Of a stretch of 64,000 nt of DNA, positions 2,796 to 30,209 are shown in pieces. A program made the position numbers and the translations under genes. This stretch comes from Acidobacteriota bacterium. GTDB taxonomy: Bacteria > Acidobacteriota > Terriglobia > Terriglobales > Acidobacteriaceae. A model generated the notes under the pieces. That model saw nothing but the letters and a program-made list of their open reading frames with translations. It searched no databases and had not been told where the DNA came from. How positions within the stretch are numbered: the stretch's first letter is position 1; the number at the start of each line of letters is the position of its first letter. The stretch covers positions 124,001 to 188,000 of the forward strand of contig QIAU01000124.1 of NCBI GenBank assembly GCA_003225055.1, given 5' to 3'.

Positions 2796-2831
2796 CCGAT
2801 TAGCGAGTTGGGGCCGACCTGGTGTTCCCCA

Positions 2832-6430: not shown

Positions 6431-6447
6431 TAAGGTGGTGGGCGCGA

Positions 6448-11657: not shown

Positions 11658-11771
11658 GTTCCATTTCTACATAGCCATTCTGCACAATTGCCGCCACGAT
11701 TCTGCCCCGAACAGCCAGAGCGTATCACAGACTGGCTCCTCCCCGCACAGAGAATTAGGCTCGTTACCCAT

Positions 11772-12467
11772 ATGGCCACTCCAGGTGTCACGACGAGATC
11801 GAGAATTATTAACCTACTGATGACCGGTTTCGATGCTCTTGATCTGCTCAACATCGGATTCATCGTGACTAACCTAGCGGGCCGCGTGCTGCTGGCAAAT
11901 ACTACGGCGGAGAAAATTCTCGAAGCTCAGGACGGCCTCAGATTGACATCCGAGGGTACACTTTCCACCTCGCCCGGGTGCAATTCGCCTTCTATGGAAT
12001 CCATACTGAAGGGAAAGCCAGGCGTGAAACAGGCTGTCATTGCCCTGTCCCGGCCTTCCGGCAAAAGACCGCTGACGTTACTGGTGCGTTCGGCGGAAGT
12101 GGCGCCGTCAGATTACCCGGAGCCGGCCAGGATTCTGGTGTTTGTTCTGGATCCGGAGAGTCCAACAGCTCGCGAGCCGGAATTGCGGCAGCTTTACGGA
12201 CTTACTTCCGCCGAGACCCGGCTGGCCAATCTCCTGATGGAAGGCAAGACACTTGAAGAATGCTGTGACATGCTGGGCATCCGCCGCTCGACGGCCAAAA
12301 TGCATCTTCGAAACGTGTTCACCAAGACGGATGTACAGCGGCAGGGCGAGTTGGTGGCCCTCTTGTTCAACAGCACGGGGACGGTTCGGGCGCGGAATGG
12401 GGACCAGAGGTCCGGTTGGAAACATTGGCCCTTCCGAGAAACGCCCGATGCTGAGAGTTCACCTTAA
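11772..12467 (+). CDS. PAS-like/LuxR-type HTH transcriptional regulator, paralogue 1
   Basis: 231 residues from the ATG at 11772 (a TTG-type start at 11688 would add 28 residues unlike the paralogue, so the later start is preferred). The N-terminal part is PAS-like (FDALDLLNIGFIVTNLAGRV, LLANTTAEKILEAQDGL), followed by a basic linker (RPSGKRPLTLLVRSAE) and a LuxR-type HTH (YGLTSAETRLANLLMEGK, CCDMLGIRRSTAKMHLRNVF). No receiver domain is present, so ligand or redox sensing by the PAS-like part is likely. A Cys-Cys pair in the HTH (EECCD) is shared with the next gene. The pair is divergent from the two-component genes and points toward the multicopper operon. Confidence 0.8.
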   Translation: MATPGVTTRSRIINLLMTGFDALDLLNIGFIVTNLAGRVLLANTTAEKILEAQDGLRLTSEGTLSTSPGCNSPSMESILKGKPGVKQAVIALSRPSGKRPLTLLVRSAEVAPSDYPEPARILVFVLDPESPTAREPELRQLYGLTSAETRLANLLMEGKTLEECCDMLGIRRSTAKMHLRNVFTKTDVQRQGELVALLFNSTGTVRARNGDQRSGWKHWPFRETPDAESSP

Positions 12468-12541: not shown

Positions 12542-13453
12542 ATGACATTTATACGTTCTATGGTGCCCGCTCACCAAAAATCTCATTGTCCTACCTGTGG
12601 AGCACGGGACTCGATGGGTGGCTGCGAAGATCCCAAGAAGTGCATTGAAGACCTGGAGAGAAGGGAAGACGTCTGCCTCAGCAAAATTAGGGACCTGGTA
12701 GACGACCACCCGGATAGTCACCCGTTTCACCTGATGATGGCCGGCTTCGACGCATTTGACCTGCTCAACCTGGGATTGGCCGTGACCGATGCCTCGGGAC
12801 GCTTGTTGTTGGCCAATCGGACCACCGAGCGCATTCTGGAAATGCGTGATGGTCTGCAACTAACCCCGCGTGGGGTACTCCAGGGATCAGTGCTCTCGTG
12901 CCCGGGCCTGATGGATGCCCTCGAGCAAGCGGCGAATGCCTCTCTGTCAGAAGAATCGAAAACCAATGATTTGGCATTGGCCGTTCAACGTCCTTCAGGC
13001 AGGAGGCCTTTGACCCTGTTCGTACGCTCGGCAGAGGGACTGTCGGAGGACGGCAGTCCGCCGACCACGGCCGCCTTGGTTTTCATCCTGGACCCCGAAC
13101 TGCCGGTCGAAGCCGACGCTGGCGAGCTTGGTCAGCTCTACGGGTTCACGGTTGCGGAGACTCGTCTTGCCAATCTACTGATGCAAGGCAAAAGCCTAGA
13201 GGATTGTTGCGCCGAGCTCGGTATTCGGCGTCCTACGGCTTGCAGCCATCTCCGGCAGCTGTTCAAGAAAACCCACGTGCAGCGCCAAAGCCAGCTCGTC
13301 TCTTTGCTCCTTAAGAGTATCGGACTGATGAGTAGGAAGGCTGCGGCTCGCAAGGCGCCTGCTGCGGCAGTGTTGCTTTCTAGCTCAAGAACTAAAGCCC
13401 AGAGGGACGCGCGATTTTCCCGGAGCCTTCATTCATCTGGACGTAGACAGTGA
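12542..13453 (+). CDS. PAS-like/LuxR-type HTH transcriptional regulator, paralogue 2, with Cys-rich N-terminus
   Basis: 303 residues, 74 bases after paralogue 1 and clearly duplicated from the same ancestor (FDAFDLLNLGLAVTDASGRL; RPSGRRPLTLFVRSAEG; FTVAETRLANLLMQGKSLED). It adds an N-terminal segment with C-x2-C, C and C (HCPTCGARDSMGGCEDPKKC), possibly a zinc knuckle or redox site; this is inference. The HTH (CCAELGIRRPTACSHLRQLF) keeps the paired Cys. The C-terminal tail is basic and low in complexity and its last codons lie inside a 53-bp repeat that recurs at 31151. GAGAGG about eight bases before ATG is the likely ribosome-binding site. Confidence 0.8.
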   Translation: MTFIRSMVPAHQKSHCPTCGARDSMGGCEDPKKCIEDLERREDVCLSKIRDLVDDHPDSHPFHLMMAGFDAFDLLNLGLAVTDASGRLLLANRTTERILEMRDGLQLTPRGVLQGSVLSCPGLMDALEQAANASLSEESKTNDLALAVQRPSGRRPLTLFVRSAEGLSEDGSPPTTAALVFILDPELPVEADAGELGQLYGFTVAETRLANLLMQGKSLEDCCAELGIRRPTACSHLRQLFKKTHVQRQSQLVSLLLKSIGLMSRKAAARKAPAAAVLLSSSRTKAQRDARFSRSLHSSGRRQ

Positions 13454-13788: not shown

Positions 13789-15585
13789 GTGAGAAAGCCT
13801 TACCGGGTTTTGTTGCCATTAACTCTAATTTGCCTTGCGACAGCAATCGCAGGTGCTCAGGCCACCGGCGTGGGCGGAGTCGGCATCGGGCCGACAGGCC
13901 CGGGCGGCAATGGGACGACCGCTCAAGGGGGCGGTTCGTTCAGGGTGCAGTGCCCAACCACTACACCCTTACACCCCACGGCTATTTCCAATTCCGCTCC
14001 CGGCACTCCCTTGACCGAAGCCGCAGAACCTGCCTACACGGGGCCGGCGGTTACACCAGAGACGGTGGGCGGGCAATCGTTGAGCTACACGCTCAACGGC
14101 GGCACCGTGAAGTGCCAGGAGATTTCGGGTGGGGACGGTTATTCCACCATGGCGGATGGGAACCAAATCTTCATGTTTTCGTTCGGTCCTCTCTCCGGCA
14201 TGGACTTAATCAAGAATGGTCAGGCTGGGACTCTGTTCGCCGCAGACTTTAACAATTACTACAACGAGCCTAATCAGCCGGCCGTTGCTGCGGCCCCGAA
14301 TGACACTCCAGATCCGACCTATGACCCAAAGCGCGCCAACAGCCTGAACGGCGGCATAGCCGATCCTGGCACCATCATGGAAATCGGGGTGCTGAACGGA
14401 AACATTCCGGCGCCCTTGATGGCGTTCGACGAGGACGACGAATTTTTCCTGACTTTGAGCAACGTGGGCATGATCATGCGGCCGGACCTGTTCGAGGAGC
14501 ACACGGTCCACTTCCACGGCTATCCCAACGCATCCTCTTATTACGATGGTGTGCCGGATGCGACCTGGGCGATCAATATCGGCGGCAGCGCCACTTACTA
14601 CTATGTGGCGCCTGATGCCGGCACCTACTTCTGGCACTGCCACATAACGCCGCCCGAACACCTGCAGATGGGCATGGTCGGCCAGCTCTATGTGCGACCG
14701 CGGCAGAACCGCGAGCCGGCGGGTACGAATCTCTACAATGCCGTTGCAGGCAGCGCCACCAGCGGAACGTTCGGTTCGTTACCGGGGCCCGGTATGCAAA
14801 GCGATCTGCGGACGGCCTGCCCAGGTACCGGGACGACTCCCGCGGCGGGATACACCTACGGTGCGAGTGGCTCCATCGATATTCTCTGTTCCGCCCCTAT
14901 CCCCCTTGCCGATACAGGGGCTGTGCAGGTAGCGGGTGCCAAGTATGCCTATGACGACGGCGACGGCAGCACGCGCTACGACATAGACGTCCCTATTCAG
15001 ATTCACGGCTTCGATCCCAACTTCCACTTTGTCGGCATGACGTTCAACCCGGAAGGATTCGCCGACATGAAGGACAAGTACTTCCTGCTGAATGGCCGCA
15101 GCTATCCCGACACGATCAGCGCTCCGTCCACCAATCCGGGGTATGCGGGTCTCACTCCGAATGCCCCAGCCCAGGACCCGACATCAAATGCCATCGGGAC
15201 GGAGGACTCCGACGGACTGACGCGCTATTCGCAACCGCTGCCGACCCTGATCACCCTGCATTCCAGCCCAGCCAATGGTCCATCGAGGGCTCTGCTGCGC
15301 ATTGCTGATCTCGATGTTACCGAGTATCAGACCCTCGCGTCATTGGGAATCCCCATGACGGTAGTTGGGTTCAATGCCAAGCTGCTGCGTGACCAGGCGG
15401 GAAATAACCTCTTCATCAAGACCAACTCCATCACGCTGGGCGGCGGTGAGTCGCTGGATGCGATTCTTGATGCTACGGGCGTTCCCCCAGGCACGTACTT
15501 CCTCTACACCCCGAATCTTGATCACTTGTCGAACGACGCCGAGAACTTCGGCGGTTTGATGACCGAAGTTGTGGTTGTGAACTAA
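13789..15585 (+). CDS. Secreted multicopper oxidase-like protein, subunit 1 (HxHG + HCH motifs)
   Basis: 598 residues from a GTG with a strong ribosome-binding site. A signal peptide (VLLPLTLICLATAIAGAQ) precedes a Gly-rich segment. The cupredoxin core carries TVHFHGYPNA (H241, H243) and YFWHCHITPPEHLQMGM (H283, C284, H285, H291, M296): a complete type-1 copper set with one HxHG and one HCH motif. A second cupredoxin-like region follows (IQIHGFDPNFHFVGMTFNPE; FLLNGRSYPDT). Only two of the four HxH motifs needed for a trinuclear copper cluster are here; the other two are in the next gene. It probably works outside the cytoplasm as part of a copper oxidase; substrate (metal ions or phenolics) is unknown. 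Confidence 0.85.
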   Translation: MRKPYRVLLPLTLICLATAIAGAQATGVGGVGIGPTGPGGNGTTAQGGGSFRVQCPTTTPLHPTAISNSAPGTPLTEAAEPAYTGPAVTPETVGGQSLSYTLNGGTVKCQEISGGDGYSTMADGNQIFMFSFGPLSGMDLIKNGQAGTLFAADFNNYYNEPNQPAVAAAPNDTPDPTYDPKRANSLNGGIADPGTIMEIGVLNGNIPAPLMAFDEDDEFFLTLSNVGMIMRPDLFEEHTVHFHGYPNASSYYDGVPDATWAINIGGSATYYYVAPDAGTYFWHCHITPPEHLQMGMVGQLYVRPRQNREPAGTNLYNAVAGSATSGTFGSLPGPGMQSDLRTACPGTGTTPAAGYTYGASGSIDILCSAPIPLADTGAVQVAGAKYAYDDGDGSTRYDIDVPIQIHGFDPNFHFVGMTFNPEGFADMKDKYFLLNGRSYPDTISAPSTNPGYAGLTPNAPAQDPTSNAIGTEDSDGLTRYSQPLPTLITLHSSPANGPSRALLRIADLDVTEYQTLASLGIPMTVVGFNAKLLRDQAGNNLFIKTNSITLGGGESLDAILDATGVPPGTYFLYTPNLDHLSNDAENFGGLMTEVVVVN

Positions 15586-15601
15586 GCAGGAGAGAGCAGC
15601 T

Positions 15602-17203
15602 ATGAGTGACGTGAATGAGAAAACGCGAAACGCGGCAACACTGACAGCGGTCGTGATGGTAGCGGTGGCGTTGCTGATCGGGGGAACGGCCCAAGCCGCG
15701 GTTCCCGGCATAACGGCCAGCGCGGGCGGAAGCTCCACGTTCAACCTGGTCGCCTCTCAGGGTTACATCTCGCAGCCGGATGGCGCCCTCATCTACTCCT
15801 GGGGCTACGGGTGCGCCACTAACAGTGCCACCTTTAAACCCTACACCACCGGCGCCTTTTGTCCCAGCATGCAGATTCCCGGGCCCACTCTGGTGGTGAC
15901 CCAGGGCGTGCCATTTACAGTGACCTTGACTAACAACCTTCCCAAGGGAGCGGGCAATACCTCGATCGTCTTCCAGGGCGCAACAGTCACTTCAACGGGA
16001 ACGGCGGGACTGCTGGCGGCGGAGGCTGCACCCGCGGGAAGCGTGACCTATAACGTCACCTTTGCGAACGCGGGTACTCACGCTTACTACAGCGGTACGC
16101 AGCCTGACCTTCAGATTGAGATGGGCCTTTATGGTGCCGTCGTGGTTTTACCCTCGACGATTCCCGCCGGGGCCAATTGCTCAACCGGCATACCCATTGC
16201 GCAACAACTGGGTGGTGGATCTACCGACTTTCGGCTCGCCGCCGCCGCCTATAACCACCCGGAGGCCTGCTACGACCGCGAATACCTCACCCAGTGGATG
16301 GAGTTGGATGCGCACATCCACAAGCAGGCAGAAAACCAGGTACAGGCCATCGCAAACTGTCCGGCCGCCAGTGTCTGTCCCACCGCACTCGATGTCAAGA
16401 CCGAGCCGTACCATCCGTCGTACTTCCTCATCAATGGGCGCTCCATGCCGGACAACATGGACCCGTCCTACGCACCCAACTACCCGAACCAGCCCTACAA
16501 CGCTAACCCCCACATGCACCCTGGAGACCTGGTCCTGGTCCGGGTCATCGGACAGGGACACTGGCAGCATCCTTTCCACGAGCACGGCAACCACGTGCGC
16601 ATCCTGGCGCGTGACGGCAACTTGATCCTGAGCCAGAACGATGCTGTCGTTCCTCCGAGGCTTGCCGGCCGCATGGAGTTTAATACCGACACCACTCCGG
16701 GCCAGGCGTTCGACGGAATCTTCTACTGGTCCGGAAAGGGCTTGGGCTGGGATATCTATGGGCACACAAACGCGTACGCGGTGGCTACTCAACCATGTGT
16801 CCCCGATGCCAATGGTTACTACACAAAGAATAGCGGAGCCACCGCCAGTTCACCGAACTACTACGAGTGGTGCGCCGACCATAACCACCCGCTGGAGGCC
16901 CATCCGGTGGGGCAGATCGGAAGTGGCGGCCCGGCGACGCAATTTGATCCCCTGGTTGCCACCAATGGTCTGTGGTACAACGGCACCCCTTACCTCGGGC
17001 CGGATGCCGTAGGGCGCAATCGCGGCCCGACACCTCTGCCCCCCAGTGCAAGCACCATGAACCCCTTTATCGAATCAGGCATCGCCTTCATGTGGCATTC
17101 CCACAATGAGCGCGAGATCACCACCAATGACATTTTCCCGGGCGGGATGCTGCAGATGATGCTGGTTGATCCGCCCACCTTTTGGATTGACGAAACGCTG
17201 TAA
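15602..17203 (+). CDS. Secreted multicopper oxidase-like protein, subunit 2 (HPxHxHG + HSH motifs)
   Basis: 533 residues, 16 bases after subunit 1, with AGGAGAGAG before the ATG. A hydrophobic signal (VVMVAVALLIGGTAQAAVPG) is followed by a type-3 cupredoxin domain (MQIPGPTLVVTQGVPFTVTL, TNNLP) whose copper motif is lost (THAYYSGTQPDLQIEMGLYG). The C-terminal half has QHPFHEHGNH (H323, H326, H328, H331) and FMWHSHNERE (H499, H501), the third and second HxH motifs of canonical multicopper oxidases. There is no HCH, so no type-1 site of its own. Together with the preceding protein the four HxH motifs are complete, which suggests a heteromeric enzyme. Processing and location are inferred from the signal peptides. 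Confidence 0.85.
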   Translation: MSDVNEKTRNAATLTAVVMVAVALLIGGTAQAAVPGITASAGGSSTFNLVASQGYISQPDGALIYSWGYGCATNSATFKPYTTGAFCPSMQIPGPTLVVTQGVPFTVTLTNNLPKGAGNTSIVFQGATVTSTGTAGLLAAEAAPAGSVTYNVTFANAGTHAYYSGTQPDLQIEMGLYGAVVVLPSTIPAGANCSTGIPIAQQLGGGSTDFRLAAAAYNHPEACYDREYLTQWMELDAHIHKQAENQVQAIANCPAASVCPTALDVKTEPYHPSYFLINGRSMPDNMDPSYAPNYPNQPYNANPHMHPGDLVLVRVIGQGHWQHPFHEHGNHVRILARDGNLILSQNDAVVPPRLAGRMEFNTDTTPGQAFDGIFYWSGKGLGWDIYGHTNAYAVATQPCVPDANGYYTKNSGATASSPNYYEWCADHNHPLEAHPVGQIGSGGPATQFDPLVATNGLWYNGTPYLGPDAVGRNRGPTPLPPSASTMNPFIESGIAFMWHSHNEREITTNDIFPGGMLQMMLVDPPTFWIDETL

Positions 17204-17212
17204 TGGAGAGCT

Positions 17213-20200
17213 GTGATGGAGACAAGAGCCATGCGATCAAAACGCGTTAACGCCACTTTCAAAGCTGCCGTGTCTGCAGTGATCTTCCTGCTCCTTACAG
17301 CGGCCGTGTCCTTGGGCCAGGTGACGGTGACCCTCACCGCGTCACGGCAGACCACGATTCTGCCTGACGGCAATACTGTGCCCATGTGGGGCTGGACGTG
17401 CGACGCGGCTAGTGCGACCGCCGGCAACTGCCTGGCTCTAAATCGCACCCCCCAGACGGGTGGCACCGTCTGGCAGCCACCTCTGATCACGGCGCCCTAT
17501 GTGGCCACCGGAACTAGCCTGACGATCAACTTGACTAACAACCTCCCGGTCGAGACCTCATTGGTAATTGTCGGTCAGCTGCCGGGTGGTGGCCTGGGCA
17601 CCCCCGTTAGAGAGAGTGGACCGCGCACCGACGGGGCCCACGCCGGCCAGACCTCAACCACGTGGACCACCGTCGTTGCTGCAACGTTCACTCCACCGGC
17701 TCAAGGTCAACGTGTCAGGTCGTTCGTGACGGAAGCCACACCTAATACTGGTACGGCGAGCTACACGTGGAGCGCTCTGAAACCTGGAACCTATCTCATC
17801 GAGTCGGGAACCTATCCCTCGATTCAGGGTCCGATGGGTCTTTACGGAGTGCTGGTAGTTACCACCGCTCCAACCACCACGGCTGCGGGCACGGCTTATT
17901 CCGGCTGCGCGCCTCTAACGCCGGCCACGTGCGCAAGCGCGGCGACAACTAACTACTCGATTAACTACGATGCCGACGTACCCCTGCTGCTGAGCGAAAT
18001 TGATCCGGTGCAGAACTCGGCCGTAGAGCAGTTGGTGGAAACGTCTGCCGGGTGCCCGACGGCCACGCCCGGAACAGGAACCTGCACCGGTTCGCTGAGC
18101 GCCGCCATGGCGACCGCCAAGTGGACCCAGGCTTGCGGCGCGGCCCACACCTGTTATCCGGCGGCGGTGAACTACACGCCGCTGTACTTCCTGATGAACG
18201 GCCAGGCGTTCAACAAGACATTGGCGACCGGATTCTCCTCGGCAGCGCCCGTTGGCTCTGCCGCTTCAACCGGCAATGTTCTGCTGCGCTTTGTGAACGC
18301 CGGCCTGCATATGCACGTTCCATCCGTGAACGGGCTTTCCATGTCGCTGATCGCCGAAGACAGCAACGTTCTTGCGGACGTCGCTCTGGGCGCCGCCAAG
18401 ACAACCACCGTGGGTACAGTCACCACCGCAACGCCGAACCTCGCCGTGAGAGTCCAGAACGAAGTCTTCCTGCCTGCCGGCAAGGTGTACGACGTCATGA
18501 TCAACCCGGCTAACACCGCCACGCCGACGGCGGCTGGCACCTTTACTGCTGCCAACTATCAGGTTTTTGACCGCGAATTGAGCCTCTCTACCAACGGCAG
18601 CGCGCGCGACGGTGGTATGCAGACCGTTTTGCAGGTGGCCGGAGGCGGCGCGTGGGCCGCCACTAACCCCACAATTGTTGCTCCGGCTACTTACTACTGC
18701 GTACCGGGCGTGACCCTCAATGTGTCCGACACGGGCAAGGGAGTCATCGGGCAAGACGTGAACGTGTATGGCGTGAGTCTGCTTAACGCCGGCGTGGCTG
18801 CCGCGAACCACACAATAACTCCCTTCGGGGCTGCTGGGGGAACCGATTCTCTGACTCTGAACCCCAATGGCACCTTCACCTACACGCAGGCAGCTGCCAA
18901 TACTACCTGCGGCGGTTCGTTCACGTATTCAATAGACGGCACCGCGACGACCCAAACCGCTAACATTACTCCAACCACCCTGACAACAAAGCCGGTCGCG
19001 AATAACGACAGTTACGTGAGCAACCTTCAATCTCTGCTGCGCGCCGCTGCGCCCGGTGTTCTGGCAAACGACACCGATTCCCATAACTCCCCGTTGTGCG
19101 CGGCTCCGACGACTGCAACGAGCTGCCCGACGACAGGTCAGACGCTTACCGCGACGGCAGGAACAGCGAAGTTGCTCCTGAAGCCGGATGGCTCCTTCCT
19201 GGCGACCAACCCCGGCGGTGCGGCCGGCACGGCCACCTTCAGCTACGTGGCCATCAACGCGGAGAAGGCGGTCAGCAATACAGCGACTATCACAGTGAAT
19301 TTCCAGGCCGGCAGCGGCCTGCAGGTGAGAGTGCAGGATGCGAAGACGCAGGCGGCCGTCAGCGATTACAAGTGGATCATTGAGCAAGACCTCACCTTCC
19401 AAATCGATCCGACCAAGCAGGTCAATAGCGGCGGGACAGTTCCTCCTCCGACCCTGGGCACCAACCTCAACGCCAGCTACATGCCGGTAGTGGCGGTTGG
19501 CTGCACCGGACCGCAAAGCTGCGAGCGGGCCCAGACGGTCTATGACCCGACCACCAACACTCACGTTCCGGCAGTATGCGACGGCGGCATTTGCGTGCCC
19601 GCTTCCACATTGGGGGCTTCGTCTCTGCCTGTAACCCTACCGGGCGATGTGAACCTCCCAACGGCCGATGCCTTCGGCCGGCCCGCGTATTACTACATCT
19701 CCGTGTTGCCGGGCGATGCCGCAAACGCGTTCAATACCGGCAATGCCGCGGACCCCACTGTGGCGGGTAATTGTACTGCTGCTACCACCGCGACCGGGGT
19801 GGCCGTCACCTCGAACTGCGGGCATACCATGGGAGGTGCTCCCATTGCTCCCGGCCAAACGCAAGTTACAGTTAACGTGGAACCGAACCCGCTGCCCACC
19901 GCCACCGTGGTTGGGTGGGTGTTTGAAGATGACTGGCCGCTCAATGGTGAACCAGACACCGGCGGAGGTGTCGAAGGCGGCACTAACGCTCAGGCCTTCC
20001 CAACCGTAGAGCCGGGGCTGGAAGACTTCTCTGTCCTCCTCTGGGATGATGCCGGCGGCAGCGGTGACGCCACCGGGCAAATGACCTACGACATGTTCAA
20101 CATGCCGCTGACGAATGCCCTGAACGGAACCATCGATCCGCTCACCGGACTGGACGCGTGTCCCATCTCAAACGCCAGCGGCCAAGCCCAGCAGGTGGGC

Positions 20201-23200
20201 ACGATCATCGTGTGCCCGAAGTTCGAGTCCGACGGGGTAACCCTGTCCCCACTGGTGGGCCAGTTCGTGATCGAGAACCTCATGCCCGGCAGATTTGGAG
20301 TGATCGTGCACCCCGGAGCGCGGCGAGAAGCCAATGGGGAAGAATGGCTCCAGACCAATACCTTGGACGGCAGTCACCTCCTGGACTCGTTCGTCAAGGC
20401 GGCTGAGCCACACTATTTCCAGGAATACGGGCCGGGCGGATACCACGTGTTCTTCGGAATGGCCAATCCCAAGATCATTAACGGACGCCTGCCGGCAATC
20501 TGTAGCGGAGCACTTAATTCCAGCGGCGCTCCCGCAACCGGCACTGCCCTTAATTGCACCAACACGGTCAAAGTCCAGGTGACCAACCTGCACCAGGGCC
20601 GTTCGCCGAATGAGCAGCTTTACAGCAGCATGGTCGGCGCTTACGGCAGTTCACTCAATTACTCGCCGTTAAACTACACCACGTGCTACGCCTCTCTGGG
20701 CGATACGGACGGTGCGACGTTCGCCTTCCAGAAGTGCGATGAAAATGGAAACGTGACGTTCACCGGGGTTCCTGACGGGGAGTGGGGACTGGTTGTCTTC
20801 GACCAATGGGTGGACTTCATCGTTGACGGTTCCAGCAAATCCTTGAACGTAAATCACACCCAGGCCTGCAATTCGAGCAGTAGCCCGGGCACCTGCAACG
20901 TGAACTATGCCGCGTTCACCTGGCAGACGCACCTCTGGAATCGCAGCTACATGGATACCACAGGCCGGGGTAGCCCGGTGCTGCTGGGGGATGGGACCCT
21001 GGATCCATTGCAGAGCCCCGGACTGATTCAGACTCCAGTCCGCATCCGCATGCGAAACGGCAAGTTTAGTAACACCCAGTTCACCAACTTCGGCGGCGAG
21101 GCCCATTTCGATGAGACCTTCCCACTGTTCGCCTTCTATGTGGCTGAGTCGGACACCACGCGTTTCCGGGGCACCGGTGTGCACGTGGTCAACGACAACG
21201 GCGGAGCCCTGGACGCGTCAGGTCCTTACGCTGCCGTCCTGAACTCGGCGGAGACCTACTCGCTTCCCGCTGATCTGAGCGTACCAGGCGCGATCTACTG
21301 CGCCAGCGGGGACGCCGCCTGCAATAACAATACGTTCTTGATCAATCCAACCGGCTTGGCTTCAAGAGGAACGGCTGGAAGCACCAGCACCACCTCGGTT
21401 CAGTCCACCGGTCGAATTGATCCGGGCACGATCACCACGGAAGGCTGGCAAGGCGGTCTTAGTGAGTTCGACATGATCGACTGGGGCAAGCAGCCCTACT
21501 ACCCGGGCGAAAACGGCGGCATTCGCGGCCATGTGGTTTACAGTTCGACCCGACCGTTTGACGATCCTGGACAACTCTTCCAGAACCTTTGGGAACCGCT
21601 TGTTCCTGGCGTAACCATCAACCTCTATGAGGAAGGCACAGCGGCGGACGGAACCCAGACTCTGACTCTGGTGGATACGACCACCACCAGCAGTTGGGAC
21701 GCTTGGGCCCAGGGCTTCGCGGGCGCGGGACAACAGGGTTTTGGCGGAGGCACCGCTCCGAACGGAACTGCAGTTGCGTCCACTATCCCCAACATGAATT
21801 GCCCAGGCCAGCCCCCCACCGACCCCTTCTACAGCTACACGCTCGAGAACACGACCAACTACCTGAACCCCACGACCGCAGTGCCCCACAACTCCCAGTA
21901 CAAGTGCTATGACGGGTACCACAACCTCAACCAGGTGCAACCGGCTCCCTATGATGGCTTGTACCATTTCCCAAGCCCGTATTGCAGCAATAACCCTGGC
22001 GGCACTATCCCCGGGACAACCATCGTGTGCGCCACAGTAACCAACCCGGCTTACGGAATAGCCGGCCAGACCGGGGCCGTAAAGGGTGTGCTGCCGTCCC
22101 AGGCCACCTGCCAGGCAGGCAACTTGAACTGCACAGGCAAGTATGTGGTCGAGGCTGTGACTCCGCCGAACTACGAGATCACCAAGGAAGAAGACAAGAA
22201 CATCCTCATTGGCGACAACTTCATCGCGCCGGCGACAATGCAGTTTGGCGCCATCTCTAACATTTTCATTGTGCCCGACCAGGCTACCATCGGCAATGCC
22301 AACTCCTGTTTCGGCACCGGTGGTGGGTGTACGAATCCAACCACGGACCTGGGGCGAACTTTCAACATTGGCGGATTTGGCCCAGGCGGGAACATCGTGA
22401 TGCCGGCACCTTGCGTAGGCCAGATGCGAATCGTCCCCGATTACATGAGCATCTCGCCGGAAGGGGGCGAAGTGGCGCCCTTCGCAGGTGCTACACGGCC
22501 CTTGTGCGACCGCAAGGAGATCACGCTCAACGACCAGATGGAGTCAACCGCTGACTTCTTCGTTTGGACCAAGACGCCTGCTGCTTCTCACTTCACCGGG
22601 TTCATCACGGACGATTTCTCTTCCGAATTTGACCCCGCTGCACCGGCCTTCGGCGAGAAGTTTGCCGTGCCCAATGTTCCGGTAGCGATCAAGGACTACG
22701 CCGGAGTGGAAATTTCTCGCGTGTACTCCGACCAGTGGGGCTCCTTCAACGGGGTAACGTTCTCGACGTGGCAGGTGGACCCGCCAAACCCGACCGGTTA
22801 CGCGCCGGGGATGATGATTACCTGCATGAACGATCCGGGACCTATCAAAGATACGCGCGTCACCTCCCCGACCTTCGGGCAGATGATCACCGATCCTCTG
22901 TTCAACTCGAACTACAGCACGTTCTGCTACGAGAACCCCTTCATGCCGGCTGACACCGCCTACTTGGACACGCCGGTGGTGCCAACATCAGCGTTCGCCG
23001 AGGGCTACAACCCGCCCGATTGCGCTTACCCGGATGCAACGCCGGCCATCAAGTCCGTGACCGGTAGTGTCGCAGGACCTTGGGTCAGTGCGACCGGCCA
23101 GAATATAACCATCACTGCTCTGGGTGACGTGCTCGTGGCCAACAACGGTTATTCCGGGCCGGCAGCGACTGTGCCTCCCTACAACCAGAAATTCATCACT

Positions 23201-26200
23201 CGCCATTACGGCTTCGGCAATAGCCGAGGATCGGTTCGGATTAACGGCGAGGACGCGAACGTCAGCAGCTGGAGCGATTCAACCATCGTCGCCAGCGTGC
23301 CCGGAGATTTATCCTTGTGCAGCAATAGCAACCCGGCCTATGGCGTGGGTGGCACCAGCAACCCGAACTTCAACGCACGATGCGGCGAGTTGGTGATCAC
23401 GGCAGCCAATGGCAAGCAGTCTATTGATACCGTAACCATCACGGCTGGCGGCAAAACTCCTACGGTGCTGGCTGCGGGACAAACCATTCAGTCCGCCATC
23501 GATGCCGCCTCGCCGGGCGATCTGATCATCGTTCCTCCGGGGAAGTATTACGAAATGCTTCTGATGTGGAAGCCGGTGCGGCTGCAAGGCGTGGGCGCCG
23601 CTTCCAGCGTAGTAGACTCCAACACCCACCCGGCCGCCAAGCTGATCGATCCTTGGCGCAGGAAAGTGGCCTGCCTGTTCGGCTTGTCCTTGGACGGAGC
23701 TTACATCAACAACGCCCCCGTGGCCGGCGGCGGAACGGTCAACCCTTATGATTCGAGCGGCACCTACTCATGTCCGTACTACAGTTCCGTGACGGGCCAG
23801 TTGACGACTCAGAGCATGGTGGATCAGATACCGCTGGAGACTGTGATCGGCTGGGATGTCACGCAAAACGGCAATATCGCGGAACTCTTGCAGGAGCCCT
23901 CGCTCATGGGCGCCTACGAGGGCGCGGGCATTACAGTACTGGCTAAGGGCCTGGAGAACAACAACCAGCCGGGCGTTTGCGACAATACGACAGTTGGGGG
24001 AGCACCCATTAACAATGGCTGCATTCCGCTTAATGCCTGCGCCGCGTACGCAAACCCCTTGGGAGCCTGCACAAACTCCCCGACGAGTACTGTCGGCGGC
24101 GCTGTCGTTAATAACACCATTGGGGACTGCAACACGACGTCGCCGTTCTACAAGACGAACTATCTGTGCAATCCGTCGCGTATTGACGGCTTGACCTTCG
24201 CCGACAGTTCCCAGGGGGGTGGCGGCATGTTCATCCATGGCTATGCCCACTACCTGGAAGTTGCCAACAACCGCGTCTACAACAATGCCGGCACGCTTGG
24301 CGGCGGCATCATTCTTGGCCAGGCTGAAACTCCGCCGCCGACCTTCGATAACAGCATCAACACGATCATTGTGACCACCCCAGGCTCGGGCTACACGTGC
24401 CCGGGAACGGCCACTACCTGCAACGTGTCCGTCACCATCTCGGTACCACCACGGGGCGGTGTGAGGGCTACAGCAGTGGCAACGGTCAATGCAACTCTGC
24501 ACCAGGTCACTGCGATAACGGTTATCAATCCCGGCCGCGGTTATATCACGGTTCCCACGGTCACCATCGCTCCTCCTGCTCGTTGTACCACTGGCTGCGT
24601 GACCGCGACCGCGACCGCTCAGCTCAATCCCGGCGTGATTGAGCAGGCGTTTATGCTGAACCACCACGTCTATATACACAACAACTCGGTCACGCAAAAC
24701 ACCGCTTACGGCGACGAGTTGAATTCAACCACCCCGGCAGCCGCTGGTGGGGTGACGGTCTGCGATGGTTCCGACTACTATAAGTTCCAGTTCAACTGGG
24801 TATGCGGAAACCTGAGCACGGGCAACGGCGGCGGCATGTCGCACTTCGGGTTCTCCTACTACGGCGACATTGAACACAACACTTTCCTCTTTAACCAGAG
24901 CACCAATCCGACGCTGCCCACTCATGGTGGCGGGCTCATCATCGAGGGTGTGCCCCCGGATGGCACGGTCTGCGAGGGCAACGCCAACGTGGCTGACTTC
25001 GATTGTGCTCCTGCGCTCTCCGACGGCATTGGCCCCGGCCTCGTGGTCAATGCCAACCTGATCCAGGGCAACACCGCCGAAAGCGGCAGCGGAGGCGGTC
25101 TCCGGTTCCAGCATGTCAACGGGAGTGAGGTGCAACGTGCCCTGACAACCGTTGTGTCCCCGGCCACCACGCCGAACACGAATGTGCTGGCCAACTGCAC
25201 TCTGAACAACAACACATACTTCACCCCCGGATCATTCGGTGCCGGATCGTTCGGTGATGCACCGAATCAGTGCCCTGCGTACAGGGTCAGGGTAACCAAC
25301 AACATCATCGCCAATAACGTTGCGGGGTGGGCAGGAGGCGGTATCTCCATCCACAATGCAATCGGCATTGACTTGATCAACAACACCGTGGCATCGAACG
25401 ATACAACGGCTTCGGCTGGAGTGCTGTTCGACGCCGGTGGAGCACCCAATGCCAGCACCCCCCCACCGGGCTGCGACCCGACGATCGTTCCTCCTCCGCC
25501 AGCGTGCAGCAGTTCGTCAATCACGACGTCGACGAACCAGCCGTCAGGATTGGCGACAGAAGTACATGACGCCAACTTCCTGGGAGCTATGGCTGGGGCA
25601 ACCGGTTGCATTCCCAACCATCCGAATTGCAAAACCGTCTCGACGCCTATTGTGCTCAACGACCTGCTCTGGCAGAACCGGGCGTTCCACATCAGTGTGG
25701 GAACTGCTGGCACAGTGACGACGACCACGCAGACGCAGTCCTCAGTCGTGCTGAATCCGACGCTGAAACAGGCCACTACGGGCCAATGCGTCGGTGGAGC
25801 CAGCTACCTGGAGATCGGCGTGATCGGGGGTTCCGGCGGCTCTGCGCCAGCACCGCAGCACTCCATCGTGTCCGACAGCGGAACGTCGAACTTTGTCAGT
25901 CAGTACTGCAACGGTTCACGCGTGCCTCCGGAAATCGCCAATAGTGTAACCTTCTGCACGGCTGGCAGCGGCGGCGCCAATAACGCTGGATGCCTCTATC
26001 CCGGATCGGTTGGGGTGCCGGCGGGCGTTCCCGACGCCAGCAATTCCACCCCGCCGTTTGGCCTCAGCCCGGCGGCAACGGTGGACGAAGGTAATAACTG
26101 GATCAACCTCTATTACGGGCCCCTATCCACGGTCAACTCCTCGAAGACAGTGGGGGCGGCGGCCTACGGCGAGCCCTTGGGGGACTACGCTCTGAGGGCT

Positions 26201-27031
26201 CATAACAACGCCGGCGTGGCGAACATGGCGGGTTACCCGCCAGTGCCAGCCACCGACTTCTTCGGCCACAGCAGGACGGGGGGAGTCGATGCCGGTGCGG
26301 TCCAGTTCACCACCGGGGCCTCCGCGAGTACCGGCGGGCCGTCCTACAGCGTGCTGCCGAACCCGCTTAACTTCGGCAATGTGCAACTGGGCGCAACCCT
26401 GACCACAGCCACAGCACCCGTTTTGTCTGTGGACGTCAACAATACGGGCGACACCGCACTCACGCGTGGCACAGCAGCTGCCATTTCGGGCACGAACGCG
26501 AACCAATTCGCGATCGTAACCAATGGCTGTACGGCCACCAGCCTGCCCATCGCAGGGACTTGCGCCATCACGGTTCGATTCCTGCCGACCAGCGCAGGGG
26601 TCAAGACTGCGACTCTGAGCATCAGCTACGGAGGCGTATCTCAGCCGGTGACTCTGACGGGAGCGGGTTGGGCGGCGGTGACGGTGACCCCGGCAACGAC
26701 CGCGACAGCCCCCTACTCCTTCGGAGCGGTCGCGGCCGGCACAACCAGCGCGCCGACCACGTTCACGCTGACAAACCCAGCGGGGAACCCAACTCTGAAC
26801 ATCGCCGCCATTACCTTCTCGTCGACCTACTTCTACCGGGATGGCCCGGCAGGCACGGCCACGGGAGGTACTTGCGGCTCAAGCCTAGGAGGAGGAGCGA
26901 CTTGCACGATCCTGGTGGTCTTCTCACCGCCGCCCTCGACGCAACTCGGGGTGGCGACAAGCGCAACTATGAGCGTCTTCGACAACGCGCCCAACAGCCC
27001 GCAAACGGCGTCGCTGACTGGGACGTATTAG
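17213..27031 (+). CDS. Giant 3272-residue exported multidomain protein
   Basis: Nine bases after subunit 2, same operon. A signal peptide (SAVIFLLLTAAVSLGQ) leads into multicopper-type cupredoxin domains (about 35-480) that have lost their copper ligands: GTYLIESGTYPSIQGPMGLYG replaces the HCH region near residue 200, and LHMHVPSVNG near 365 replaces HPxHLHG. Then come a cadherin/VCBS-like domain (about 590-710, PGVLANDTDSHNS), several SdrD/Cna-B-like beta modules (about 900-1930, for example VVGWVFEDDWPLNGEPD and GGIRGHVVYSSTRPFDD), an IPT/TIG-like domain (about 1945-2080), a pectate-lyase-like right-handed beta-helix (about 2087-3020, starting GQTIQSAIDAASPGDLIIVP) and two ASH/choice-of-anchor-D domains to the end. 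It is probably a surface scaffold or adhesin working with the two copper proteins. ATG at 17216 or 17231 are alternative starts. Confidence 0.85.
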   Translation: MMETRAMRSKRVNATFKAAVSAVIFLLLTAAVSLGQVTVTLTASRQTTILPDGNTVPMWGWTCDAASATAGNCLALNRTPQTGGTVWQPPLITAPYVATGTSLTINLTNNLPVETSLVIVGQLPGGGLGTPVRESGPRTDGAHAGQTSTTWTTVVAATFTPPAQGQRVRSFVTEATPNTGTASYTWSALKPGTYLIESGTYPSIQGPMGLYGVLVVTTAPTTTAAGTAYSGCAPLTPATCASAATTNYSINYDADVPLLLSEIDPVQNSAVEQLVETSAGCPTATPGTGTCTGSLSAAMATAKWTQACGAAHTCYPAAVNYTPLYFLMNGQAFNKTLATGFSSAAPVGSAASTGNVLLRFVNAGLHMHVPSVNGLSMSLIAEDSNVLADVALGAAKTTTVGTVTTATPNLAVRVQNEVFLPAGKVYDVMINPANTATPTAAGTFTAANYQVFDRELSLSTNGSARDGGMQTVLQVAGGGAWAATNPTIVAPATYYCVPGVTLNVSDTGKGVIGQDVNVYGVSLLNAGVAAANHTITPFGAAGGTDSLTLNPNGTFTYTQAAANTTCGGSFTYSIDGTATTQTANITPTTLTTKPVANNDSYVSNLQSLLRAAAPGVLANDTDSHNSPLCAAPTTATSCPTTGQTLTATAGTAKLLLKPDGSFLATNPGGAAGTATFSYVAINAEKAVSNTATITVNFQAGSGLQVRVQDAKTQAAVSDYKWIIEQDLTFQIDPTKQVNSGGTVPPPTLGTNLNASYMPVVAVGCTGPQSCERAQTVYDPTTNTHVPAVCDGGICVPASTLGASSLPVTLPGDVNLPTADAFGRPAYYYISVLPGDAANAFNTGNAADPTVAGNCTAATTATGVAVTSNCGHTMGGAPIAPGQTQVTVNVEPNPLPTATVVGWVFEDDWPLNGEPDTGGGVEGGTNAQAFPTVEPGLEDFSVLLWDDAGGSGDATGQMTYDMFNMPLTNALNGTIDPLTGLDACPISNASGQAQQVGTIIVCPKFESDGVTLSPLVGQFVIENLMPGRFGVIVHPGARREANGEEWLQTNTLDGSHLLDSFVKAAEPHYFQEYGPGGYHVFFGMANPKIINGRLPAICSGALNSSGAPATGTALNCTNTVKVQVTNLHQGRSPNEQLYSSMVGAYGSSLNYSPLNYTTCYASLGDTDGATFAFQKCDENGNVTFTGVPDGEWGLVVFDQWVDFIVDGSSKSLNVNHTQACNSSSSPGTCNVNYAAFTWQTHLWNRSYMDTTGRGSPVLLGDGTLDPLQSPGLIQTPVRIRMRNGKFSNTQFTNFGGEAHFDETFPLFAFYVAESDTTRFRGTGVHVVNDNGGALDASGPYAAVLNSAETYSLPADLSVPGAIYCASGDAACNNNTFLINPTGLASRGTAGSTSTTSVQSTGRIDPGTITTEGWQGGLSEFDMIDWGKQPYYPGENGGIRGHVVYSSTRPFDDPGQLFQNLWEPLVPGVTINLYEEGTAADGTQTLTLVDTTTTSSWDAWAQGFAGAGQQGFGGGTAPNGTAVASTIPNMNCPGQPPTDPFYSYTLENTTNYLNPTTAVPHNSQYKCYDGYHNLNQVQPAPYDGLYHFPSPYCSNNPGGTIPGTTIVCATVTNPAYGIAGQTGAVKGVLPSQATCQAGNLNCTGKYVVEAVTPPNYEITKEEDKNILIGDNFIAPATMQFGAISNIFIVPDQATIGNANSCFGTGGGCTNPTTDLGRTFNIGGFGPGGNIVMPAPCVGQMRIVPDYMSISPEGGEVAPFAGATRPLCDRKEITLNDQMESTADFFVWTKTPAASHFTGFITDDFSSEFDPAAPAFGEKFAVPNVPVAIKDYAGVEISRVYSDQWGSFNGVTFSTWQVDPPNPTGYAPGMMITCMNDPGPIKDTRVTSPTFGQMITDPLFNSNYSTFCYENPFMPADTAYLDTPVVPTSAFAEGYNPPDCAYPDATPAIKSVTGSVAGPWVSATGQNITITALGDVLVANNGYSGPAATVPPYNQKFITRHYGFGNSRGSVRINGEDANVSSWSDSTIVASVPGDLSLCSNSNPAYGVGGTSNPNFNARCGELVITAANGKQSIDTVTITAGGKTPTVLAAGQTIQSAIDAASPGDLIIVPPGKYYEMLLMWKPVRLQGVGAASSVVDSNTHPAAKLIDPWRRKVACLFGLSLDGAYINNAPVAGGGTVNPYDSSGTYSCPYYSSVTGQLTTQSMVDQIPLETVIGWDVTQNGNIAELLQEPSLMGAYEGAGITVLAKGLENNNQPGVCDNTTVGGAPINNGCIPLNACAAYANPLGACTNSPTSTVGGAVVNNTIGDCNTTSPFYKTNYLCNPSRIDGLTFADSSQGGGGMFIHGYAHYLEVANNRVYNNAGTLGGGIILGQAETPPPTFDNSINTIIVTTPGSGYTCPGTATTCNVSVTISVPPRGGVRATAVATVNATLHQVTAITVINPGRGYITVPTVTIAPPARCTTGCVTATATAQLNPGVIEQAFMLNHHVYIHNNSVTQNTAYGDELNSTTPAAAGGVTVCDGSDYYKFQFNWVCGNLSTGNGGGMSHFGFSYYGDIEHNTFLFNQSTNPTLPTHGGGLIIEGVPPDGTVCEGNANVADFDCAPALSDGIGPGLVVNANLIQGNTAESGSGGGLRFQHVNGSEVQRALTTVVSPATTPNTNVLANCTLNNNTYFTPGSFGAGSFGDAPNQCPAYRVRVTNNIIANNVAGWAGGGISIHNAIGIDLINNTVASNDTTASAGVLFDAGGAPNASTPPPGCDPTIVPPPPACSSSSITTSTNQPSGLATEVHDANFLGAMAGATGCIPNHPNCKTVSTPIVLNDLLWQNRAFHISVGTAGTVTTTTQTQSSVVLNPTLKQATTGQCVGGASYLEIGVIGGSGGSAPAPQHSIVSDSGTSNFVSQYCNGSRVPPEIANSVTFCTAGSGGANNAGCLYPGSVGVPAGVPDASNSTPPFGLSPAATVDEGNNWINLYYGPLSTVNSSKTVGAAAYGEPLGDYALRAHNNAGVANMAGYPPVPATDFFGHSRTGGVDAGAVQFTTGASASTGGPSYSVLPNPLNFGNVQLGATLTTATAPVLSVDVNNTGDTALTRGTAAAISGTNANQFAIVTNGCTATSLPIAGTCAITVRFLPTSAGVKTATLSISYGGVSQPVTLTGAGWAAVTVTPATTATAPYSFGAVAAGTTSAPTTFTLTNPAGNPTLNIAAITFSSTYFYRDGPAGTATGGTCGSSLGGGATCTILVVFSPPPSTQLGVATSATMSVFDNAPNSPQTASLTGTY

Positions 27032-27043
27032 TAGGATGAGACG

Positions 27044-27610
27044 ATGATCAACCAGCCATTCGTGCCCATCCGGATGCTGCTCGCGAGGTTTCTCGCGGGC
27101 AGCATCGTCTTTTTATCGGCCTTGGCAGTTCGAGCAGTGGAACCACCTGGACAAGTGGATCACACGGTATCTTCGCCGATGGCTTCCGCGAAGCTTGTCT
27201 CTGCCCGTCCCCCTTCGGTTACCCAAACTGTAAGCAGCGAGCGCGCGGCCATGGTGTACAGCCGTATCTGGGGCGTCGACGACCTCAGGCTCAGGGAAAC
27301 CGCCTCGGGCTCCATGATCCGCTTCAGTTACCGGGTAGTGGATGCGACCAAGGCGAAGGTGCTCAATAACAAGAAGTTCAGTCCCACGCTGACCGATCAG
27401 ACCTCGGGAGCGAGGTTAGAGGTTCCGGTTATGGAGAAGGTCGGACAGCTGCGCCAAACTGCGACACCTGAGAACGGTCGAGAATACTGGATGGTGTTCT
27501 CTAACAGAAGTCATATTGTGAAGCCCGGAAACCGTGTGACCGTAGTCATCGGTACTTTTCGGGCGCAAGGACTGGTGGTCGAGGCGAGTACCCTATCGCA
27601 CACCCGCTAA
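27044..27610 (+). CDS. Small exported protein of the multicopper operon, unknown function
   Basis: 188 residues, 12 bases after the giant gene. A signal peptide (MLLARFLAGSIVFLSALAV, inner ATG 27074) is followed by a soluble domain with YSRIWGVDDLRLRETASGSM, IRFSYRVVDATKAKVLNNKK and EKVGQLRQTATPENGREYWM. The motif set looks like a conserved family, but I do not know a function for it. A 15-bp hairpin with a U-tract is embedded in the signal-peptide codons, so expression may be attenuated relative to the upstream genes. It is probably periplasmic or surface-exposed and may assist the copper proteins; that is inference from position only. Confidence 0.75.
   Translation: MINQPFVPIRMLLARFLAGSIVFLSALAVRAVEPPGQVDHTVSSPMASAKLVSARPPSVTQTVSSERAAMVYSRIWGVDDLRLRETASGSMIRFSYRVVDATKAKVLNNKKFSPTLTDQTSGARLEVPVMEKVGQLRQTATPENGREYWMVFSNRSHIVKPGNRVTVVIGTFRAQGLVVEASTLSHTR
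27073..27116 (+). terminator. Intrinsic terminator-like hairpin inside a signal-peptide coding region
   Basis: Arm 27073-27087 (GATGCTGCTCGCGAG) pairs fully with 27092-27106 (CTCGCGGGCAGCATC), 14 Watson-Crick pairs plus one G-U, closed by the four-base loop GTTT. GTCTTTTTATC follows. It lies 42 bases after the stop of the giant gene but within codons 11-21 of the next gene. It may act as an attenuator or as the real operon terminator. Confidence 0.7.
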
Positions 27611-27952: not shown

Positions 27953-29197
27953 ATGCATTTTCGCAGCATGGCAATTCTTGTCCTAACTTCGATGGGACTG
28001 GCGCAGGCCCTTCCCGCTACCGCGCCCGCTAACCCGGGAAAGGCCCCGCGCAAGGCGACCGGTCTCCGGCCGAGCGGTGCGGTACCTGTGCCCATTAGTG
28101 GCCACGTTGGTGCCGACGACCCTGTTATCACTATACAGGGCATCTGTGACGCTCCTGCTGCGAGCAAAACGGCAAAGCCGAGACCTAATTCGACCTCAGC
28201 ATCCCATAAAGCAGCCGACTGCAAGACGGTCATTACTCGCTCGCAGTTCGAGCGCCTGGCCGCTGCCTTACAACCAGACATGACCCCGTCCTTTAAGAAG
28301 AAGCTGGCTGAGCTTTATCCCACCATGATTATCATGGCTCACACGGCTGAGAAGCGAGGATATCAAAGCAAGCCGAATTTCAAAGAGTTGATGGAGTTTT
28401 CCCGTATTCAGATACTCTCTACAGAGCTGAATCGCGCGGTAGAAAAGGACGCACAAGAAGTTACACCCTCGGACATTGAGAAATACTACAAAGACAACCC
28501 TGACTCCTTCGAGCAGGTGACCGTGGACCGGATCTTTATCCCCAAAGGCCCACGCAAGCAAGCCCCAAACGAAAAATCGAGTGCCGAGACGGCGGAGGAA
28601 TCCGCGGAGTCTGGCAATAATACGATGAAGAACGAGGCGGACGCTCTCGAAACGCGCGCTGCTGCTGGGGAGGACTTCGATAAATTACAGAAGGAAGCCT
28701 TCGAATTGGCCGGACTAACCCCTCCCCCCTCAAGCACGAACGTCAAACTTACGCTGAAGGAATTGCCAGCGGATGAGCGGGCAATTCTCGACATGCAGCC
28801 TGGCGAAATATCCCATGTTTTCCCTGAGAGCAACGGATATTTCATCTACAAATTCTTGTCCAAGGAACGAAAGCCCCTTGACGACAAAACGCAGGAGGAC
28901 CTCAAATCCAAACTGTCACAACAACGTTTCCAGCAGACAATGGATCAACTCCATAAATCGTTTTCGGCAACGCTAAATGAGGCTTATTTCGCACCGGAGG
29001 CGCAAGCACGCCCCCAGCGTCCCATGCCAGTTCCTAGGCCTGTACCGCAAGCAGGTACGGGACCGGCCACCACTAGCGCGGTGGCGGTTCGTCGGCCTGC
29101 CTTGGTGCCCGTGACGACTCCGGCGGCTCCAAATACCGAAGTGCCGGGCAGCGATAACCACAACCCTGGTGCCCCCCCCGCGGAACCTCAGAGATAA
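27953..29197 (+). CDS. SurA/PpiD-like periplasmic chaperone, parvulin-type
   Basis: 414 residues with GGAGG upstream. A signal peptide (MAILVLTSMGLAQALPATAP) is followed by a SurA-like N-domain (VITRSQFERLAAALQPDMTP, LMEFSRIQILSTELNRAVEK, SDIEKYYKDNPDSFEQVTVD) and a diverged parvulin region with an acidic insertion (about residues 200-225) and the family ending LDMQPGEISHVFPESNGYF then IYKFLSKERKPL. The C-terminal 70 residues are Pro-rich and disordered. Unusually, the segment before the N-domain has extra Cys residues (GICDAP, ADCKTV). It would help fold exported proteins; its position beside a 3272-residue secreted protein suggests a dedicated role. Confidence 0.8.
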   Translation: MHFRSMAILVLTSMGLAQALPATAPANPGKAPRKATGLRPSGAVPVPISGHVGADDPVITIQGICDAPAASKTAKPRPNSTSASHKAADCKTVITRSQFERLAAALQPDMTPSFKKKLAELYPTMIIMAHTAEKRGYQSKPNFKELMEFSRIQILSTELNRAVEKDAQEVTPSDIEKYYKDNPDSFEQVTVDRIFIPKGPRKQAPNEKSSAETAEESAESGNNTMKNEADALETRAAAGEDFDKLQKEAFELAGLTPPPSSTNVKLTLKELPADERAILDMQPGEISHVFPESNGYFIYKFLSKERKPLDDKTQEDLKSKLSQQRFQQTMDQLHKSFSATLNEAYFAPEAQARPQRPMPVPRPVPQAGTGPATTSAVAVRRPALVPVTTPAAPNTEVPGSDNHNPGAPPAEPQR

Positions 29198-29729: not shown

Positions 29730-30209
29730 ATGTGCAGGAAGAATGTCTGTATTGTGATGGTGGCCTTGATGGCAAGCTACGCGCTGGCCCAGGGTCATAC
29801 TCGACGACCCCAGCCCAGACCACCGGTCGTTGGCCTGCGAGTCATGCACGGACCTACGACAGTCACGGGGGAGGGAACGACCACGCCGTCGGGGCTGAAA
29901 TACTGGGACTTGCAGATCGGGACCGGGGGGGTGGCAACCAAGGGGAAGGCGGTAAAAATCCACTACACCGGATGGCTGGAGTCTGGGAAAAAGTTTGAGA
30001 GTTCGGTGGATGAACGGCAGCCGGTCATCTTTTTGCTTGGCTCTTCTAAGGTGATTCAGGGTTGGAATGAGGGCATCGAGGGCATGCGGGTCGGCGGCAA
30101 ACGGCAGCTATGGGTTCCCCCATCCCTCGCTTACGGTCATCGCGGCTCGGAGGTCGTTCCCCCGAATTCGACCCTGATATTTGAGATCGAGATTCTGGGC
30201 GTTCAGTAG
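29730..30209 (+). CDS. Exported FKBP-type peptidyl-prolyl cis-trans isomerase
   Basis: 159 residues. A signal peptide (KNVCIVMVALMASYALAQ) leads to a standard FKBP domain from about residue 55: KYWDLQIGTGGVATKGKAVK, IHYTGWLESGKKFESS, VIFLLGSSKVIQGWNEGIEG, MRVGGKRQLWVPPSLAYGHR and the final LIFEIEILGVQ. The pocket-lining residues typical for FKBPs (Tyr and Phe of YTG.../F.SS, V-I-x-G-W, and LAYG) are kept, so it should be active. Together with the SurA-like gene it forms an exported folding module downstream of the copper proteins. An AGGGAAAAGGG run lies before the start. Confidence 0.9.
   Translation: MCRKNVCIVMVALMASYALAQGHTRRPQPRPPVVGLRVMHGPTTVTGEGTTTPSGLKYWDLQIGTGGVATKGKAVKIHYTGWLESGKKFESSVDERQPVIFLLGSSKVIQGWNEGIEGMRVGGKRQLWVPPSLAYGHRGSEVVPPNSTLIFEIEILGVQ

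Follow-up and report, generated by a model that had tools for sequence, protein, structure and literature searches.

The 64,000-nt stretch of DNA analyzed here (the window; positions 124,001 to 188,000 of contig QIAU01000124.1, Acidobacteriota bacterium, assembly GCA_003225055.1) raises the question of whether one multicopper oxidase (MCO) can be divided over several genes. An initial annotation had reported two open reading frames at 13789-17203 with the copper motifs of a single MCO shared between them; both frames are present there, and their motifs are as it described. A third gene follows, and the three, termed P1, P2 and P3, lie head to tail on the plus strand in the 7.4 Mb genome of a soil bacterium, with gaps of 16 nt between P1 and P2 and 9 nt between P2 and P3 (Table 1). 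All three genes have a purine-rich Shine-Dalgarno-like sequence of their own, and their products all begin with a hydrophobic stretch resembling a signal peptide; P1 and P2 would be secreted two-domain MCO units. Four complete P1-P2-P3 operons, including that of the window, were found in the host genome; the other three are on contigs C34, C101 and C139 (loci L112, L114 and L113, respectively), with P1 proteins about 67-77% identical. In one annotated Paraburkholderia record, the relatives of P1, P2 and P3 are all labelled as hypothetical proteins. We consider it quite probable that three paralogous two-domain cupredoxin units, namely P1, P2 and the N-terminus of P3, descend from a type C two-domain MCO (2dMCO), and that they form a heteromer, most likely a 1:1:1 pseudo-threefold ring, with a single trinuclear copper cluster (TNC) where domain 1 of P1 meets domain 2 of P2.

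In P1, residues H238, H241, H243, H283, C284, H285, H291 and M296 were invariant in 79 homologues, and in P2 the same was true of H323, H326, H328, H499 and H501 in 76 homologues; because of this invariance, the motifs cannot be attributed to chance. When aligned to genuine type C 2dMCOs, P1 has every ligand of domain 1 and none of the four TNC histidines of domain 2, where the corresponding columns are mostly L/V, L/P, Y and T/S. P2 is the complement: all four TNC histidines of domain 2 are present, and seven of the eight ligand columns of domain 1 are occupied by V/T, V/I/L, P/Q, S, G, Q and L, while the eighth column, the first His of HCH, contains His in 5 of 16 rows. The four ligands of the type 1 (T1) copper (H238, C284, H291 and M296) are all located in domain 1 of P1, and domain 2 has none of them. 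The ligand columns therefore give four plus four TNC histidines and one T1 site for each pair of P1 and P2, and among the three possible interfaces only that between P1 domain 1 and P2 domain 2 supplies a full TNC ligand set. The claim that the motifs of the two proteins are complementary and add up to exactly one set is thus borne out by both alignment and invariance. Judged by this alignment, P1 and P2 are two-domain units, each having lost the ligands that the other kept.

Four further histidines of P2 (304, 306, 331 and 427, in the contexts NPHMHPGD, NH and DH) are also invariant or nearly so. By alignment they are not TNC ligands, and they may mark an extra metal or substrate site.

In three-domain laccases the HCH motif and the T1 site are found in the last domain, and in type C 2dMCOs the T1 copper sits in the N-terminal domain. 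The initial annotation took the motif distribution to be unusual and the C284-H291-M296 spacing to be odd compared with laccases. Neither impression held, since type C 2dMCOs likewise combine an N-terminal-domain T1 site with HCH and a C-x6-H spacing; the Cys-to-His spacing of +7 (C-x6-H) is the same as in type C 2dMCO sequences resembling 3g5w, and the His-to-Met spacing of +5 is the usual value. The structures 3g5w (Nitrosomonas europaea) and 2zwn (a metagenomic laccase) are both type C-like 2dMCOs. The best PDB match of the P1 profile was 3g5w (E=3.6e-16), strong in domain 1 and weak in domain 2, and the P2 profile had the same best match (E=3.4e-13), reaching both domains. From the motif order, the PDB matches and the spacing, we therefore regard the system as a type C enzyme distributed over several genes. 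2dMCOs are trimers in which the TNC ligands are supplied by two protomers (PMC13151041). The likeness to type C enzymes extends to two cupredoxin domains per chain, the N-terminal T1 site, the motifs and C-x6-H, and the TNC, which in the known enzymes lies between neighbouring chains, would likewise lie at the interface of P1 and P2. The known enzymes, however, have all ligands on one chain and three equal sites per homotrimer, whereas here paralogous chains share the ligands between them, and a ring could hold no more than one site. The set of eight TNC histidines on one chain that defines the type C enzymes was found in none of the three proteins: P1 and P2 have four each, and P3 has no set.

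P3 has a two-domain MCO unit at its N-terminus, where a P2-like match had already been seen in the first genome searches. The P3 profile matched 2zwn across both domains (E=1.9e-14), followed by 3g5w, and matched the P2 profile with E=1.2e-43. In the type C alignment P3 has none of the four TNC histidines of domain 2 and no consistent ligand of domain 1, only scattered histidines. This unit was missed in the initial annotation; with it, the system would be one of three subunits. P3 comes after P2 in almost all loci that extend far enough. In compact, diverged operons, P1, P2 and P3 are three adjacent short genes with P3 standing alone; the cores are about 400-510 aa for P1, 435-540 aa for P2 and 350-640 aa for P3, and some open frames are longer.

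The genes for P1 and P2 occur together. P2 was next to P1 in 79 of 80 P1 loci, at a median distance of about 12 nt, and the exception (L018) lies on a contig that stops 309 bp beyond P1. Among 247 Acidobacteriota genomes, all 13 with a strong P2 match also had P1, and 14 had a strong P1 match, the one without P2 (G136) being cut at a contig edge (Fisher p ~1e-20). P1 and P2 were in the same plasmid record in 8 of 8 cases, including Cupriavidus metallidurans CH34, and 12 of 12 strong P1 loci in 321 gammaproteobacterial genomes had an adjacent P2. The evolutionary distances of P1 and P2 are correlated with r=0.94, higher than in every shuffle, as expected of an operon inherited as one unit. The initial annotation had proposed that the two proteins form an obligate heteromer whose TNC sits where they meet, an idea that would suffer if one gene were widespread without the other; in every locus that could be evaluated, the two were adjacent, and neither gene turned up on its own. 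The complementary invariant ligands, the co-occurrence and adjacency in both directions and the homology to 2dMCOs together support the proposed heteromer, which we infer from them.

A P2 match on a Halomontanus plasmid does not represent a fusion and falls within an ordinary MCO gene of 382 aa, and the long open frames over P2 in loci L077 and L091 are chance frames, because P1 lies in another frame.

In the phylogenetic tree, P1, P2 and P3 each form one clade, with P2 and P3 as sisters (100/97). The tree was rooted at its midpoint, so the direction of change is an interpretation. Among weak matches in Gammaproteobacteria (L130, L131, L132 and L139), we found adjacent pairs of genes, alpha and beta, of about 320-390 aa each. 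Beta carries HTIHxHG together with an HCH...H...MGM motif, i.e., the T1 site and the domain 1 half, while alpha is without the domain 1 set and has the four TNC histidines of domain 2. These pairs resemble a two-gene version of the split MCO. Across the midpoint root, alpha is placed close to P2 and P3; beta is placed close to P1 and the type C enzymes (P1 with beta, 89/41). From these positions, the division of ligands may predate P3, although the deep branches are weak.

In the proposed assembly, P1, P2 and the core of P3 would form a 1:1:1 ring like that of the homotrimeric 2dMCOs, with a division of labour among the chains. The single TNC would be built from H241, H243, H283 and H285 of P1 and H326, H328, H499 and H501 of P2, and would be fed by the one T1 copper in domain 1 of P1. 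A substrate would be oxidized at this T1 site, electrons would pass from Cys284 through His283 and His285 to the TNC, and O2 would be reduced to water there. The two remaining interfaces would have a structural role only, with P3 completing the ring. Mn(II), Fe(II) and phenolics would each be a conventional candidate for the substrate.

Table 1. Features of the P1-P2-P3 locus and its surroundings (window coordinates).
Feature	Coordinates	Strand	Details
LuxR/PAS-like regulator	11688..12467	+	possible local regulator; weak GerE and PAS matches
Second LuxR-like regulator	12542..13453	+	upstream of P1; weak GerE match; family F7
P1, T1-copper subunit	13789..15585	+	598 aa, GTG start; Pfam Cu-oxidase_3/2
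P1 motif H238-T-V-H241-F-H243-G (HTVHFHG)	14500..14520	+	T1 His and two TNC His; aligns with HTIHWHG of type C 2dMCO
P1 motif HCHITPPEHLQMGM (H283, C284, H285, H291, M296)	14635..14676	+	two TNC His and T1 Cys, His, Met; aligns with type C 2dMCO HCHVNVSEHVAMRGM
P2, TNC-complementing subunit	15602..17203	+	533 aa, ATG start; Pfam Cu-oxidase_3
P2 motif H323-P-F-H326-E-H328-G (HPFHEHG)	16568..16588	+	TNC His H326, H328; aligns with HAIHPHG, type C 2dMCO domain 2
P2 motif H499-S-H501-N-E-R-E (preceded by W498)	17096..17116	+	two TNC His; aligns with HDH, type C 2dMCO domain 2
P3, whole gene	17213..27031	+	3272 aa
P3 core (~residues 1-480)	17213..18652	+	two-domain MCO unit without copper-ligand set; profile versus PDB 2zwn and P2
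P3 giant C-terminal region	18653..27031	+	NosD-like stretch and choice-of-anchor D domains; NCBIfam NF012200, TIGR04247
F1, conserved small protein	27044..27610	+	directly after P3; no Pfam/NCBIfam match
PpiC-type peptidyl-prolyl isomerase	27953..29197	+	possible folding helper (presumed association); Pfam PF13145
FKBP-type peptidyl-prolyl isomerase	29730..30209	+	possible folding helper (presumed association); Pfam PF00254, E=7e-32

The C-terminal region of P3 comprises about 2,700 adhesin-like residues and is presumed to be a surface scaffold. In compact operons its homologue is a separate gene (F0) directly upstream of P1, with open frames of up to 1737 aa; the F0 product of locus L120 has SdrD_B and choice-of-anchor Q matches. 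In locus L104 (5857-12699, minus strand), a protein of 2281 aa carries the scaffold region joined to the P1 N-terminus. The scaffold module thus occurs as a gene of its own, as a fusion with P1 or as a fusion with P3, and by this Rosetta-stone evidence the products would work together, probably at the cell surface. With the adhesin-like tail of P3, the oxidase would probably sit outside the outer membrane. A subtilase gene lies near compact operons (10418-12127 in L120; the same family in L111, L105, L118 and L123), and the L120 protein also has a weak match to a MopE copper-binding motif; this subtilase possibly processes the scaffold.

Among the neighbouring genes, the family of F1 was found in 11 loci, mostly right after P3, and that of the LuxR/PAS-like regulator also upstream of the paralogous operons L112 and L114. 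In several Burkholderiales loci, a cytochrome c-like gene lies near P1 (8109-9761 in L083; the same family in L081, L084 and L066). Glycoside hydrolases of families GH3, GH28 and GH2 are clustered upstream in the window (2808-8274), which suggests the use of plant polymers.

Several points weigh against the proposed ring. The formation of a P1/P2 complex is something we infer from sequence, and the 1:1:1 stoichiometry is drawn from the likeness to 2dMCO trimers. A fused P1-P2 chain was not found in the loci examined, and the MCO units of P1, P2 and P3 were on separate genes in every locus read. Structure predictions were of low confidence: an AF2 model of the in-frame P1-stop-P2 of locus L075, read through and folded with a 55-row alignment, had a pLDDT of 60 and a pTM of 0.48 with domain 1 of P1 unfolded and was not used as evidence, and the model of P1 by itself reached a pLDDT of 61 and a pTM of 0.66. 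A Foldseek search with the latter gave MCO and 2dMCO matches, the 2dMCOs over about 500 columns, which is consistent with the assignment. The search with the P1+P2 model listed factor V, ceruloplasmin and MnxG at an rmsd near 28 Å, and this list is therefore meaningless for the geometry. P1 and P2 might also be catalytic without P3, as a P1:P2 dimer or a P1:(P2)2 trimer, with P3 acting only as an anchor or standing outside the catalytic ring. The alpha/beta systems, two adjacent genes with no further MCO gene in the regions read, indicate that two gene products can suffice, and the sister relation of P3 to P2 would fit P3 having replaced a second P2 copy. We nevertheless regard this arrangement as unlikely, as the presence of P3 after P2 even as a small stand-alone gene suggests a conserved structural role.

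It is very improbable that no TNC is shared and that P1 is a mononuclear blue copper protein, for electron transfer or of the nitrite reductase type, beside a separate copper-binding P2. Copper nitrite reductases are two-domain relatives with copper at an interface and sequence matches to domain 1 of P1, and the complex of P1 and P2 is a proposed one. These reductases, however, have a mononuclear type 2 site and are without the full set of HCH and eight histidines, whereas P1 and P2 keep the eight TNC histidines typical of oxygen-reducing MCOs, four per protein, with none lost in any homologue; the NCBIfam Cu_nitrite_red match is 35 bits against a cut-off of 296, and the strict co-occurrence of the two genes speaks against unrelated copper proteins. 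The short gaps between the three genes would also fit a six-domain MCO encoded by one gene that a mutation or a sequencing error had recently interrupted. The likelihood of such a break is close to nil, given a ribosome-binding-like site and a signal-like N-terminus on each gene, the occurrence of the three-gene state in roughly a hundred loci from two phyla as well as in the four paralogues of the host genome, and three separate old clades. A heteromer dedicated specifically to oxidizing Mn(II), the role that has been proposed for MofA and demonstrated for MnxG, has some appeal: the peptidyl-prolyl isomerases (PPIases) recall mofB, the cytochrome c-like gene next to P1 in certain Burkholderiales loci recalls mofC, and the scaffold looks extracellular. 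On the other hand, MnxG is absent from the 60 best PDB sequence matches of P1 or P2, and the proximity of the PPIases to P1-P2-P3 is one seen in this window; we consider the specific role distinctly unlikely. The resemblance of the PPIases and the cytochrome c-like gene to those of mof operons gives no more than a clue pointing to Mn(II) or Fe(II).

The evolution of MCOs is usually told as the fusion of 2dMCO homotrimers into six-domain chains, followed by the loss of sites. The proposed heteromeric ring appears to be an evolutionary intermediate between simple enzymes made of three copies and large ones made of one chain, such as ceruloplasmin. There is about an even chance, in our estimate, that it represents an old class of obligate heteromeric MCOs, in which a 2dMCO gene was duplicated and the copies lost complementary ligands (the alpha/beta state), after which the T1-less copy was duplicated into the active P2 and the ligand-free P3 with its giant scaffold, leaving one active site per ring. 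The class would then be the present-day equivalent, spread over several genes, of the path by which the 2dMCO homotrimer is presumed to have become the single-chain six-domain enzyme. The wide occurrence of paralogous separate chains with different ligand losses suggests that sites can be lost without fusion, and the P1/P2/P3 system offers a testable case of subfunctionalization across a complex.

We found no description of a heteromeric MCO with its TNC split between gene products in the open literature, most of the subscription literature being outside the search. Among known systems, the mof operons offer a comparison for neighbouring PPIase and cytochrome c genes (PMC5566968, PMC8218464), the PPIase gene there being mofB (PMC5566968). 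Leptothrix mofABC shares with our locus a large secreted MCO and a nearby PPIase, and its cytochrome c gene has a parallel in some P1 relatives; however, MofA is one polypeptide, and the likeness is one of protein type and gene neighbourhood. The six-domain MCOs (ceruloplasmin, Bacillus MnxG and the large MCOs of Leptothrix and Geobacter) are similar in their total of six cupredoxin domains, in having kept one of three possible TNCs and in the degenerate sites at the other interfaces, and differ in being single chains where P1, P2 and P3 are three. In the bacterial six-domain MCOs, the T1 copper is in domain 2 and the one TNC is between domains 2 and 3 (PMC3600357), whereas P1 carries its T1 site in the first of its two domains, as in type C enzymes; the system is therefore not simply a broken MnxG. 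The best reading of these comparisons is that P1:P2:P3 would work like a six-domain MCO divided into three chains.

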